A DNA stretch of 36,481 nt from Candidatus Coatesiibacteriota bacterium. Its GTDB lineage: Bacteria > RBG-13-66-14 > B26-G2 > WVWN01. The DNA is taken from NCBI GenBank assembly GCA_020356085.1, contig CP070633.1:2120238-2156718 (forward strand), in the 5' to 3' direction. Positions 21,701 to 25,755 of this stretch are shown here, in pieces (position 1 is the first letter of the stretch; the number at the start of each line of letters is the position of its first letter). The position numbers were made by a program, and so were the translations under genes. Under the pieces are notes generated by a model. It did no database searches. It saw nothing but the letters and a program-made list of their open reading frames with translations, and was not told the origin of the DNA.

Positions 21701-22321
21701 TTAGTAAAACAACCCTTTCACCCGGCCGAAGGAGGCGGGCGCCACCGCGGGGTGCGCATCGAAAAATATCCGCGCGTTGTAGCCCATGTCCTGTAACGTC
21801 CCGGACGTAGCTCGCTCGTCGTAGGCATAACATTGGTGTGCCGTCAACTTACCGACGAGCAAGCACACTTTTTGTCCGGTCCCCGACGTCCACGTAATCT
21901 CAAGAATCAGGTTGTCGCGGTTGTTATATTCGAACGTCTCGGCCATCGGTATGGGATAGACGCCCTCCGGGGACGGCAACTCGTACGTCGCGAAGCTGGC
22001 CACCAGCTTGGGCGTATTGCCGCCGTAGTTAGCCTCGAAATTAGCGGTTAGCGCCGAGAGGGGCGTGTGGCATAGGTAGAACTTGACCTCCTGAAACGTC
22101 GAAACGTTTACCGTCTTCTCCAACTCGAACTCGGTGATCGTCCCGGCGTAATTTATCTTGGCGCGGTCGAAAAGCATCTGGCACCGCATTCCCGGGTTGT
22201 AGGGGTGCCATGGTTGGAGGGCATTCTCGCTCCCCACGTGGATGTAGACGTTGCGACCTGTGGCCGCCGCCCCCGCTACGACCGACAACGCCGTGGCCCC
22301 AATACAAATTAGGTTCTTCAT
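21701..22321 (-). CDS. Secreted tagged protein, paralog 3 of a tandem triplet
   Basis: A 206-aa protein with signal peptide (MKNLICIGATALSVVAGAAATG). I do not recognise a named family. The body shares blocks with the next two genes: MRCQMLFDRAKINYAGTITEFELEK, FYLCHTPLSALT, NYGGNTPKLVASFATY, GVYPIPMA and YNNRDNLILEITW. The alternation of strands and the MRCQxLF...AGxIT core resemble the jelly-roll-like segments seen in exported FCB proteins, an inference only. Three Cys sites (MRC, LCHT, HQCYAYD) are shared by the triplet. The C-terminus PASFGRVKGLFY is the window's recurrent tag. Strong AGGAGG before ATG. Confidence 0.85.
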   Translation of the reverse strand: MKNLICIGATALSVVAGAAATGRNVYIHVGSENALQPWHPYNPGMRCQMLFDRAKINYAGTITEFELEKTVNVSTFQEVKFYLCHTPLSALTANFEANYGGNTPKLVASFATYELPSPEGVYPIPMAETFEYNNRDNLILEITWTSGTGQKVCLLVGKLTAHQCYAYDERATSGTLQDMGYNARIFFDAHPAVAPASFGRVKGLFY

Positions 22322-22358
22322 CCCATAACCTCCTGGAGCGGTCGGCAGGAAGCACCCC

Positions 22359-22979
22359 TCACTGATATAGCGCCTTGACGCGGCCGAAGGAGGCCGGCGT
22401 CACGGCCGGGCCGGTATCGAAGTGCACGCGGGCGTTGAGGCCGACGTCGGCGACCGTCCCGGTCGTGGCCCGGGCGTCGTACGCGTAACACACGTGGGCC
22501 GTCACCGTTCCGGAGACCAAACTCACTTTCTGGTTCTTGCCGAGCTCCCACGTTACTTCCAACAGGAGGTTGTCCCGGTTGTTATAGGCGAAGGAGTCCG
22601 CCATCGGAATCGGGTAGACGCCTTCGACCTCCGGGAGGCGGTAAGTGGCGAAGCTCGCTACCAACTTCGGCGTGTTGCCGCCGTAATTGCCGTTAAAATC
22701 CGTCGTCAAAGCGGCGAGCGGCGTATGGCAGAGGTAAAATTTGACGGTGCCGTACTCGCCAACGTACGCGTGTTTCTCCAGCTCGAACTCGGTGATCGTC
22801 CCGGCGTAGTTTATCTTGGCCCGGTCGAACAGCATCTGGCACCGCATGCCGTCGTTGGAGGAGTACCACGGATAGATGGACCCGGAGGTCCCGTTGAATA
22901 TGTACACCGTATGGCCGGTGGCGAAGGCTCCGGAGGCGAGCGCCAACCCGGCCGCAAACGTTAATAGTACCTTTCGCAC
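22359..22979 (-). CDS. Secreted tagged protein, paralog 2 of a tandem triplet
   Basis: A 206-aa paralog of its neighbours with a GTG start; AGGAGG lies 8 nt upstream. The signal peptide is MRKVLLTFAAGLALASGAFA. The conserved blocks MRCQMLFDRAKINYAGTITEFELEK, FYLCHTPLAALT, NYGGNTPKLVASFATYRLP and YNNRDNLLLEVTW are nearly identical to paralog 3; mature N-termini (HTVYIFNGTSGSIYPWYSSNDG) differ most. It ends PASFGRVKALYQ. The 37-nt gap to the next gene has only a ribosome-binding site, so these are cotranscribed. Function unknown; tandem copies diverging at the exposed N-terminus suggest surface proteins. Confidence 0.85.
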   Translation of the reverse strand: MRKVLLTFAAGLALASGAFATGHTVYIFNGTSGSIYPWYSSNDGMRCQMLFDRAKINYAGTITEFELEKHAYVGEYGTVKFYLCHTPLAALTTDFNGNYGGNTPKLVASFATYRLPEVEGVYPIPMADSFAYNNRDNLLLEVTWELGKNQKVSLVSGTVTAHVCYAYDARATTGTVADVGLNARVHFDTGPAVTPASFGRVKALYQ

Positions 22980-23014
22980 GCACGAACCTCCTCTCTCAAG
23001 AAAGCGCTTCCCGG

Positions 23015-23653
23015 CTAGCGGAACAACGCTTTAAGGCGGCCGAAAGACGCCGGCGTGACGGCCGGGTACTTGTCGAAGACGATGAGGGCGTTGTAGGCGA
23101 TGATATCCGGCGTCCCGGCCTCGGCCTGGTAGTCCCACGCAAAACAACGGTGGTTAGCCACCGACCCGTTCTTCACCCGACACATTACGTTGGACTTGTC
23201 CGACGACTCCCACGTAATCTCGAAGAGGAGGTTATCGACGTTGTTGTATGCGAACGTCGTCGCCATCGGAAGAGGGTACGGCCCCACCACCGCGGGGACC
23301 TTGTAGGTGGCGAAGCTCGCCACCATCGTGGGCGTGTTCCCGCCGTAATTCTGCCTAAACACCGGCGTGAGCGAGGTAAGATTGGTATGACAGAGGTAGA
23401 ACTTTACGTTGTAGAATTCCGCCGAATTGCCGTCGCTCTTCTCCAGCTGGAAATCCGTAATAGTACCGGCGTGGTTTATGTAAGAGCTGTCGTAGAGCAT
23501 CTGGCACCGCATGCTCGTCAGCGTGGGGTGAGGCCACCAGGGAATGGCGTTCATCCCCTCGCCGTACTTGACGTAAACCTCGCTGCCGGTAGCGAACGCC
23601 GCCGGCGCGCCAACCAGGCCAACCGCCAACGCCTTTAAGGCATACCTCTTCAT
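23015..23653 (-). CDS. Secreted tagged protein, paralog 1 of a tandem triplet
   Basis: The first gene of the operon, 212 aa, ATG preceded by GGGGAGG. Signal peptide: MKRYALKALAVGLVGAPAAFA. It is the most divergent of the triplet (MRCQMLYDSSYINHAGTITDFQLEK, FYLCHTNLTSLT, QNYGGNTPTMVASFATYKVP, YNNVDNLLFEITW), with the same Cys sites and a final PASFGRLKALFR. Transcription from 23754-23782 gives a leader of about 94 nt, in which I see no riboswitch. No function can be assigned. Confidence 0.85.
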   Translation of the reverse strand: MKRYALKALAVGLVGAPAAFATGSEVYVKYGEGMNAIPWWPHPTLTSMRCQMLYDSSYINHAGTITDFQLEKSDGNSAEFYNVKFYLCHTNLTSLTPVFRQNYGGNTPTMVASFATYKVPAVVGPYPLPMATTFAYNNVDNLLFEITWESSDKSNVMCRVKNGSVANHRCFAWDYQAEAGTPDIIAYNALIVFDKYPAVTPASFGRLKALFR

Positions 23654-23753: not shown

Positions 23754-23782
23754 AATATAACAACCCCTCGCGCCGGTGTCAA
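23754..23782 (-). promoter_or_regulatory. Promoter of the tagged-paralog operon
   Basis: On the minus strand TTGACA (23777-23782), 17-nt spacer, TATATT (23754-23759). Close to consensus and divergent from the ncRNA promoter 30 nt away. Confidence 0.78.
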
Positions 23783-23811: not shown

Positions 23812-23840
23812 TTGACTACGATCATGATAATTGTTATAAT
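23812..23840 (+). promoter_or_regulatory. Promoter of the candidate ncRNA
   Basis: TTGACT (23812-23817), 17-nt spacer that is AT-rich, TATAAT (23835-23840). Expected start of transcription about 23847. There is no protein-coding gene on this strand until 24880, beyond a terminator. Confidence 0.78.
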
Positions 23841-23846
23841 ATATGT

Positions 23847-24078
23847 AGAAAAAGGCGTTAGAGGCTAAACGCCGACGGGTTCTTTCTCGTCTAAATAAGC
23901 GGAATTCATCTGGAATATGAGACCGGAAAAAGATTTCTACACGTAACGAAGCGGGCCGGCCGCGACGGCGCCTGACGGTGGTGGAAAACAGCGCAGGCGC
24001 CTCCTCTCGCGGGACCGGCCGCTTGGTTTAATCGACCTGTTCGCTTCTACGCGGGCCCCCCCGGGGGCCCGTTTTTTT
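23847..24078 (+). ncRNA. Candidate structured non-coding RNA (~230 nt), no known family
   Basis: A near-consensus promoter leads into ~205 nt without a usable ORF and ends at an intrinsic terminator. The interval folds well by eye. 5' domain: AGAAA/TTTCT (up to TGTAGAAA 23844-23851 with TTTCTACA 23934-23941) encloses hairpins GGCGTT/AACGCC (23854-23859, 23868-23873) and GACGGG/CTCGTC (23874-23879, 23886-23891). 3' domain: CGTA plus GAAGCG (23942-23953) pairs with CGCTTC plus TACG (24042-24051). Inside are GGCCGG/CCGGCC (23954-23959, 24015-24020), CGCGA/TCGCG (23961-23965, 24007-24011) and GGCGCCTG/CAGGCGCC (23967-23974, 23994-24001), capped by a purine-rich loop. I do not see the hallmarks of RNase P, tmRNA or SRP RNA; a divergent 6S RNA is possible but not convincing. 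Confidence 0.65.
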
Positions 24079-24768
24079 AGTTCCCCGTTCCCTTATAAGG
24101 CCAACGATCTCTTTCAAGGTCGTAAAAATATGCCCCGCCGATACGGTCGAACGGCCGTGCTCGCGGGGTAGATGGCGCACGCCCCGTTCCAGAAGCGGTA
24201 CGCCGAGCCGGCGGAGCTTTACCATCAACTCCGTATCGATGAAGAATTTATCGGAATACAACTCCAAGCTTTGGAGTTCGCGCCGCGGGAGGAATTTGAA
24301 CGAACAATCGACGTCGCGGACCCGCAAGCCGAACAGGAGACGGACCAGCGCGTTGTAACCCCACGATAAGAATTTCCGGAGCGCTCCCTCCGCCCGGCCG
24401 AGCCGGTAGCCAACGACGGCGTTGCGGCCGTCGAGGAGCGGCAGGAAGGCTAGCATTTCGCCCAGGTCGAACTGGCCGTCGCCGTCCGTATAGAAGACGT
24501 AATCCATCCTCGCCGCGGCAAAGGCGTCGCGAAGGCTCTTGCCGTAACCCTCATTTTTCGAGTGGGTAACGACACGCAGCGCGGGGATTTCGCCTCGTAA
24601 CGAGGCAAGGAGGTCGGCGGTCCCGTCGCGCGAACCGTCGTCGACGATCACGATCTCGTACTCGACGCCGCCCACCCGGAGCGACTCGTCGAAGCCGCGA
24701 ACGACGCGTTCGATATTGCCGGCCTCGTTGAAGGCCGGCGCGCAGGCAGAGAGCGAAAACGACGCCAC
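24028..24768 (-). CDS. GT2-family glycosyltransferase
   Basis: A 246-aa cytoplasmic or membrane-associated GT-A enzyme of the dolichyl-phosphate mannose synthase-like group, transferring a nucleotide-activated sugar, probably to polyprenyl phosphate. Visible motifs are PAFNEAGNIERVV, IVDDGSRDGT (D43-D44), and YTDGDGQFD with the DxD at 95-97; DVDCSFKFLPR and HLPREHGRSTVSAGHIF follow. No membrane helices at the C-terminus, unlike many DPMS-like enzymes. Such a donor synthase could feed the DUF2723/GT-C proteins (inference). GTG start at 24768; a promoter at 24775-24803 leaves just 6 nt before it. Its last 51 nt overlap the ncRNA and its terminator on the opposite strand. Confidence 0.92.
   Translation of the reverse strand: MASFSLSACAPAFNEAGNIERVVRGFDESLRVGGVEYEIVIVDDGSRDGTADLLASLRGEIPALRVVTHSKNEGYGKSLRDAFAAARMDYVFYTDGDGQFDLGEMLAFLPLLDGRNAVVGYRLGRAEGALRKFLSWGYNALVRLLFGLRVRDVDCSFKFLPRRELQSLELYSDKFFIDTELMVKLRRLGVPLLERGVRHLPREHGRSTVSAGHIFTTLKEIVGLIRERGTKKTGPRGGPRRSEQVD
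24052..24078 (+). terminator. Rho-independent terminator of the ncRNA
   Basis: Stem CGGGCCCC (24052-24059) with GGGGCCCG (24064-24071), then TTTTTTT. The T-run exists only on the plus strand, so it cannot serve the minus-strand glycosyltransferase gene within whose coding end it lies. Confidence 0.85.
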
Positions 24769-24830: not shown

Positions 24831-24859
24831 TTGACTATATATGAGAAGTTTGGTAATAT
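24831..24859 (+). promoter_or_regulatory. Promoter of cupredoxin 1
   Basis: TTGACT (24831-24836), 17-nt spacer, TAATAT (24854-24859). The -10 and the strong AAGGAGGT (24866-24873) lie inside an open frame that begins at ATG 24841, so that upstream ATG cannot be the start. Confidence 0.75.
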
Positions 24860-24879
24860 ATATCCAAGGAGGTAATCAA

Positions 24880-25236
24880 ATGAGAAGAGTAACGCTTATA
24901 ATGTTGGCGCTCGCGGCCTGCGCCGCCGCCTCGCTGGCGGCTACGGAGATCCAAATCCGGGATTTCGCCTTCGTCCCGGCGAACGCCGTAATAATGAAGG
25001 GCGAAAACGTCAAGTGGACCAACTTCGACCAGGTAACCCACACGTCGACGTCGGATACCCAAATCTGGGATTCCGGCGATCTCACCCACGGCAAGTCGTT
25101 CGAATTCCGGTTTAATTCTACGGGGAGTTTCCCGTACCACTGCACGTACCACATAGCGATGAAGGGTACGATACGCGTAACGGAGACGCCGGTGGAGCCC
25201 GCCTCGTTCGGCCGCGTCAAGGCGCTTTTCCGCTAG
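24880..25236 (+). CDS. Amicyanin/plastocyanin-like cupredoxin 1 with C-terminal tag
   Basis: A 118-aa exported blue-copper protein. After the signal peptide (LMLALAACAAASLA; LAAC could also act as a lipobox) comes a single cupredoxin domain: FVPANAVIMKGENVKWTN, then H54 in VTHTSTSD, and C88-TY-H91-IA-M94. The C-x2-H-x2-M spacing matches amicyanin and predicts a type-1 copper site for electron transfer in the periplasm or at the cell surface. The mature domain ends near TETP, after which PASFGRVKALFR is appended, the same tag as on the neighbouring secreted paralogs. Start is ATG 24880, 6 nt after AAGGAGGT. Monocistronic: own promoter and terminator. Confidence 0.92.
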   Translation: MRRVTLIMLALAACAAASLAATEIQIRDFAFVPANAVIMKGENVKWTNFDQVTHTSTSDTQIWDSGDLTHGKSFEFRFNSTGSFPYHCTYHIAMKGTIRVTETPVEPASFGRVKALFR

Positions 25237-25259
25237 GCCGGCTAACGACCGCCACTCAC

Positions 25260-25286
25260 AAGCCGCTCGCAAGAGCGGCTTTTTTC
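25260..25286 (+). terminator. Terminator of cupredoxin 1
   Basis: Perfect 9-bp stem AAGCCGCTC/GAGCGGCTT with GCAA tetraloop, followed by TTTTT. Confidence 0.92.
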
Positions 25287-25349
25287 GGTTTAAAGTACGG
25301 TTTTATGCCCGCGGGCCGAGGCAGGAACCGCCTAGGCCGGAGGTTAACC

Positions 25350-25378
25350 TTGACTTAAGCACATTGGGACGCTACAAT
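25350..25378 (+). promoter_or_regulatory. Promoter of cupredoxin 2
   Basis: TTGACT (25350-25355), 17-nt spacer, TACAAT (25373-25378), with AGGAGGT 8 nt downstream of the -10. Confidence 0.76.
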
Positions 25379-25398
25379 ATAGGGTAGGAGGTAACGCT

Positions 25399-25755
25399 AT
25401 GAGGACACTGGTTTTAATGACTACGGTCGCGCTGGCCTTCGCTGCCGCGGCCTGGGCGGAAACCGAGATTAGGATCGAGGACAACAAGTTCGTCCCGGCC
25501 AACGCCGTAGTACCGAGGGGCGAGATGATCAAATGGACCAACTACGGCGCCGTCGTCCACACCTCGACCTCGGACACGCAGATCTGGGATTCCGGCGACA
25601 TTCGACCCAACCAATTCTACAAGCGGAAATTCAATCAAACCGGAACTTTCCCCTACCACTGCGAGTACCACGCCGCCATGAGAGGGACGATCCGCGTAAC
25701 GGACACACCGGTAACGCCGGAATCGTTCGGCCGCGTCAAAGCCCTTTTCCGTTAA
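25399..25755 (+). CDS. Amicyanin/plastocyanin-like cupredoxin 2 with C-terminal tag
   Basis: A 118-aa paralog of cupredoxin 1 with no length difference. Signal peptide ends AAAAWA. Copper ligands H54, C88, H91 and M94 occupy the same positions (FPYHCEYHAAMRGTI), and VHTSTSDTQIWDSGD is shared. The surface differs: it is more basic (NQFYKRKFNQ) where copy 1 is less so, which could tune the redox partner. The C-terminus is PESFGRVKALFR. Synonymous codon changes between the copies within the tag suggest selection on the peptide, not simply recent copying. It has its own promoter and terminator, so the two genes may be expressed under different conditions. Confidence 0.92.
   Translation: MRTLVLMTTVALAFAAAAWAETEIRIEDNKFVPANAVVPRGEMIKWTNYGAVVHTSTSDTQIWDSGDIRPNQFYKRKFNQTGTFPYHCEYHAAMRGTIRVTDTPVTPESFGRVKALFR

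Follow-up and report, generated by a model that had tools for sequence, protein, structure and literature searches.

A probable stand-alone small RNA gene, with a dedicated promoter and terminator, seen so far within one genus of an uncultured bacterial lineage

Systematic searches have reportedly yielded numerous new candidates for structured RNAs in bacteria (PMC2864571; PMC11109978). The candidate considered here lies in a 36,481-nt stretch of DNA (hereafter the window; G000:C1:2120238-2156718) from one of four species examined in a genus for which NCBI gives the public relatives as Candidatus Zixiibacteriota. Comparison among these species makes it a well-supported candidate for a new genus-restricted small RNA that would fall outside every catalogued RNA family.

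Among the described families, 6S RNA resembles this RNA in length, in being encoded by a stand-alone gene, and in a possible stem that closes the 5' and 3' ends, and some bacteria carry two 6S genes. The original prediction named a divergent 6S RNA as the main known alternative. However, no match to RF00013 was found at the locus at E values up to 10 (three homologs), and the 6S identity was rejected because a canonical 6S RNA is encoded elsewhere in the same genome (G000:C1:235655-235833; 77.2 bits, cut-off 46.4). Moreover, the core of the present RNA is a near-continuous hairpin of 24 pairs that lacks the large central bubble of 6S RNA. Atu_C8 (RF02502), a small RNA of Rhizobiales, likewise combines a G+C-rich hairpin with a terminator and was the best weak Rfam match of the window copy (E = 0.004). 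However, its 25.8 bits are far below the cut-off of 50 and two homologs scored only 12.9 and 18.5 bits, such that this candidate was also rejected.

Similarly, when novelty was checked with covariance models, no Rfam family reached the gathering level anywhere in the window, and searches of the locus and two homologs at E values up to 10 gave only weak, unrelated matches. The statement that the locus carries no hallmarks of RNase P RNA, tmRNA, or SRP RNA agrees with the lack of a covariance match to any of these families at this position. The tmRNA of this genome is located elsewhere (142 bits). A partial RNase P match in the same genome (G000:C1:594074-594287; E = 3e-13, 46 bits against a cut-off of 100) covers positions 20–222 of 367 and suggests that the RNase P RNA is unusual or incomplete.

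Gene structure and conservation

The features of the locus (window coordinates, with strand in parentheses) are listed below; G001, G002, and G003 are the other three species of the genus.

23754–23782 (−): TTGACA-17-TATATT, the divergent promoter serving the cluster of C-terminally tagged genes; same layout in G002 and G003
23812–23840 (+): RNA promoter, TTGACT-17-TATAAT with an extended −10 TGT; score 11/12; same arrangement in the other three species
about 23845/23847–24078 (+): predicted RNA gene; homologs in G001, G002, and G003
23845–23850 (+): GUAGAA, 5' strand of a possible closing stem with 24045–24050 (UUCUAC), from the predicted fold
23847–23939 (+): 5' domain, fast-evolving, with folds that differ between species
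23954–24020 (+): conserved core hairpin, 24 consensus pairs
23972–23996 (+): apical part of the core, CUGACGGUGGUGGAAAACAGCGCAG, nearly invariant in the four-species comparison; loop at 23981–23988
24021–24051 (+): 3' tail that includes UUUAAUCRAC and is antisense to the final codons of the glycosyltransferase gene
24052–24078 (+): intrinsic terminator, stem 24052–24059/24064–24071 followed by seven T; in all four species
24028–24768 (−): convergent glycosyltransferase gene (named by resemblance only), the end of which overlaps the RNA tail and terminator

The promoter of the original prediction is backed by its score and its TGT extension, and the layout of TTGAnn, a 17-nt spacer, and TGT-YATAAT is found at the homologous place in all four species. 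The terminator had been described as strong, and it indeed has a G+C-rich stem of 8–9 bp (24051/24052–24072) with seven T after it on the plus strand. As for the proposed ends at 23847 and 24078, the 3' end stands, whereas a 5' end at 23845 would suit the closing stem better. The gene is located between the divergent promoter of the tagged protein genes and the convergent glycosyltransferase gene. The RNA is not a leader, since it has a terminator at its end and is followed by a convergent gene. As expected from the earlier report of no ORF, every reading frame through the RNA is interrupted in at least one of the four species, and a 1-nt indel falls within the core; these observations indicate that the core is not coding. 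An independent promoter and terminator, the absence of an ORF, and conservation are the features by which trans-acting small RNAs are recognized, and the locus shows each of them. Judging from these sequence comparisons, a real non-coding RNA gene is very probably present at about 23845–24078 (+). The claim of a complete RNA gene of a new family is strengthened by the homologs in four species, by a promoter and terminator kept in each, and by the absence of any Rfam match.

The RNA comparison rests on four sequences only, and within this set the core has 82–95% identity between species (23954–24014 as measured), compared with 56–72% at fourfold-degenerate sites of the adjoining glycosyltransferase gene in the same species pairs. 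Since the core evolves much more slowly than the silent sites of this neighbor, the RNA should matter to the cell. Identity is 64–83% in the 3' tail and 75–86% in the terminator, and the conservation of these two parts is partly explained by antisense coding. The 5' domain is the least conserved part; the window copy has 34–40% identity to the other species, which have 55–70% among themselves. Short motifs, UAAAC and CUAAAUAA, are nonetheless conserved in this domain.

Relative to dinucleotide shuffles, the fold of the window RNA has z-scores of −3.7 (terminator included) and −2.9 (terminator left out); the three homologs have values of −3.2, −1.5, and −2.4 without the terminator. All four sequences fold the core hairpin, and 97.9% of the cells in its consensus pair. 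Variable columns of the core are found at 8 of 20 unpaired positions versus 5 of 48 paired positions (Fisher p = 0.014), and the variable unpaired columns spare the apical loop GUGGAARA, save one A/G site. The G-rich tip, GGUGGUGGAARACAG, is near-invariant. No core pair is changed on both sides in the four-species alignment, as the core is too conserved to show any covariation, and covariation thus neither supports nor refutes this hairpin. In the window, the 5' domain folds into two local hairpins (23854–23873 and 23874–23891). Of the two well-paired domains originally described, the 3' core hairpin holds, whereas the helices of the 5' domain are not kept and the fold drawn for it is specific to the window. 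The 5'–3' closing stem (GUAGAA/UUCUAC in the window and GCGUAC/GUACGC in G001) is predicted to be strong in G001, moderate in the window, and weak in G002 and G003, and GUAGAA at 23845–23850 has an alternative predicted partner at 23934–23941.

The terminator stem contains a covarying pair. At its eighth pair, the window and G002 have C-G, and G001 and G003 have G-C; given that G001 and G002 are the closest pair, this double change occurred at least two times on the expected tree. The shuffle control alone is not significant (82/500; one pair, four sequences), and the weight of this covariation rests on the repeated event instead. Furthermore, the amino acids encoded antisense to the terminator by the last codons of the glycosyltransferase gene vary among species (RG, EP, GR, and AT), suggesting that the hairpin rather than the protein is kept. 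For the compensatory changes that were to be sought in the listed helices, the terminator stem provides an example and the closing stem is suggestive; the core has none, and the 5' domain has no single aligned structure.

Distribution and genomic neighborhood

A BLAST search of the 232 bases against 61 genomes gave strong matches (E = 1e-29 to 7e-22) in the three remaining species of the genus and nowhere else. In all four species, the RNA adjoins the end of the same glycosyltransferase gene. It is also located beside tagged genes in the window, G002, and G003; the G001 contig stops too early to show that side. A phylum-wide covariance-model search (14 genomes, up to 150 candidates scored per genome) recovered no relative outside the genus, although a diverged copy may have been missed. 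A 29-nt pattern with up to three mismatches, searched in 386 genomes, had one off-genus match; it has three mismatches, its similarity stops at 23 nt, and it sits across a long open frame. The exact pattern had no copy in IMG/VR, and no copy of the RNA was found in the plasmids searched. In G004, which belongs to the same order, a gene for a HAD hydrolase directly follows the glycosyltransferase gene, with no RNA gene in between. Because no copy outside the genus was recognized in the phylum, the 386 genomes, IMG/VR, or plasmids, the RNA seems, within this coverage, to form a family at the level of the genus.

The divergent gene cluster in the window, G002, and G003 encodes secreted proteins that end in PASFGRVKALFR-like tags, and its promoter (TTGACN-17-TATATT) is kept in these three species. 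A C-terminal tag, PxSFGRVKALFR/YR, is common to the secreted paralogs (window 21701–23653, minus strand) and the cupredoxins (24841–25755, plus strand), and a variant, PASLGAIKAGF, is present in G004. This tag looks like a sorting or anchoring tag. The glycosyltransferase gene of G002 (L003; G002:C43:34966-35700) has an in-frame TAA four codons ahead of the end shared by the other species. Additionally, the one-contig genomes G000:C1 and G004:C1 contain 100-N runs, and are therefore probably gapped scaffolds rather than closed chromosomes.

The signal recognition particle question

Because searches found no SRP RNA in any of the four species of the genus, nor in G004 and G005, a strongly diverged SRP RNA (of the 4.5S or large type), in a lineage where the normal form is not recognizable, was considered. 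Other members of the phylum do have an SRP RNA, and the one in G006, which belongs to the same class, is of the normal large kind. Loosely like a large SRP RNA, the locus has a 5' domain followed by a long hairpin whose tip contains GGAA. However, it has no match to RF00169 or RF01854 at E values up to 10 (three homologs), and a search with its own model likewise left the SRP RNAs of relatives unmatched. It also lacks the CAGG/AGCA symmetric loop; the GGAA is flanked by ACGG/AGCG, whereas the SRP RNA of G006 has the standard motif. Finally, neither the Ffh M domain (PF02978) nor the Ffh/FtsY GTPase domain (PF00448) was found in the four species, which leaves an SRP RNA without a partner in this genus. 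The SRP identity was therefore largely dropped and is considered very unlikely.

This apparent absence of the proteins is itself of interest. In the class represented by G000–G006, the M domain and the GTPase domain were both found in none of seven genomes, including G005 with 100% estimated completeness. In the sister family (G007–G013), the M domain was found in six of seven genomes, and two GTPase matches are present in G007. The same method found rpsP in 10 of 10 genomes. The synteny of rpsP is uninformative for a missing ffh, as ffh and rpsP are on different contigs in G007 as well. No precedent for bacteria without SRP was found in the literature searched. These patterns suggest an apparent class-wide loss of the SRP GTPases that needs independent confirmation and, if confirmed, would be a larger surprise than the RNA. 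The SRP RNA of G006 (L080:1386-1652; 194.5 bits, large type) is located beside a tRNA gene, though no Ffh or FtsY was found in that genome; this may mean that the contig is a contaminant, that the genome is incomplete, or that the SRP RNA is an orphan. That the present RNA is what became of SRP RNA, or a successor in a membrane-targeting or ribosome-linked role in a class apparently without SRP proteins, would be a long shot.

Possible functions and comparison with known small RNAs

The tentatively preferred reading, one that may well turn out otherwise, is a stand-alone, genus-restricted, trans-acting small RNA whose invariant tip, tail, or both would base-pair with target mRNAs. Transcription would start from the strong sigma-70-like promoter and stop at the intrinsic terminator, giving a product of approximately 205–230 nt that may act in trans. 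The working part would be the rigid hairpin, which presents the G-rich tip, together with the single-stranded tail that follows, and the 5' domain may be a fast-evolving structural add-on. Binding of target mRNAs by the tip and/or tail through base pairing is considered the most likely mode of action. Among 13 tests of complementarity to the translation starts of neighboring genes, two had p values of about 0.02, and neither was repeated in another species. One of these is a partial complementarity between the RNA tail and the start of tagged gene 2 in the window (p = 0.02, this species only). The model of the RNA gives 23.4 bits to a GGCCGG...CCGGCC inverted repeat at window positions 22898–22985 (+), on the strand antisense to where the second tagged gene starts. 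This match and the complementarity are probably the same signal, which is not seen in G002.

The invariant tip may alternatively be a protein site, such that the RNA would act as a scaffold or decoy rather than through a pairing seed. The near-perfect invariance of the apical loop, its closing pairs, and its mismatches would suit a shape-specific protein site, and the strong conserved promoter is also consistent with this explanation. However, there is no candidate protein, and a CsrA decoy with many GGA motifs (CsrB/RsmZ type) was rejected because GGA is not enriched; the RNAs have three to five GGA, a chance level given the shuffled means of 4.3–5.1. Protein binding is thus possible but rather unlikely. 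Regulation of the convergent glycosyltransferase gene only, as an antisense or 3' regulator, is improbable; the tail and terminator are antisense to its last codons in all four species, but the best conserved part of the RNA (23954–24020) lies outside the overlap, given that the gene ends at 24028. It is even less probable that the 5' domain also encodes a peptide of 9–15 residues, which would make this a dual-function RNA. An ATG and a stop occur at corresponding places in three species, and a comparable short frame in the window ends at the same column. However, no ribosome-binding site precedes the ATG in those three species, the window frame begins elsewhere, and the common end is accounted for by a conserved CGGAG/CUCCG hairpin.

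Taken as a trans-acting small RNA, the RNA of this locus differs from the described members of this group in that neither its sequence nor a covariance search matches it to an Rfam small RNA family. It nevertheless resembles trans-acting bacterial small RNAs in general in its promoter, size, lack of an ORF, intrinsic terminator, and conserved loop, and would represent a new small RNA family in an uncultured lineage that is sharply defined by its promoter, ends, and invariant tip.
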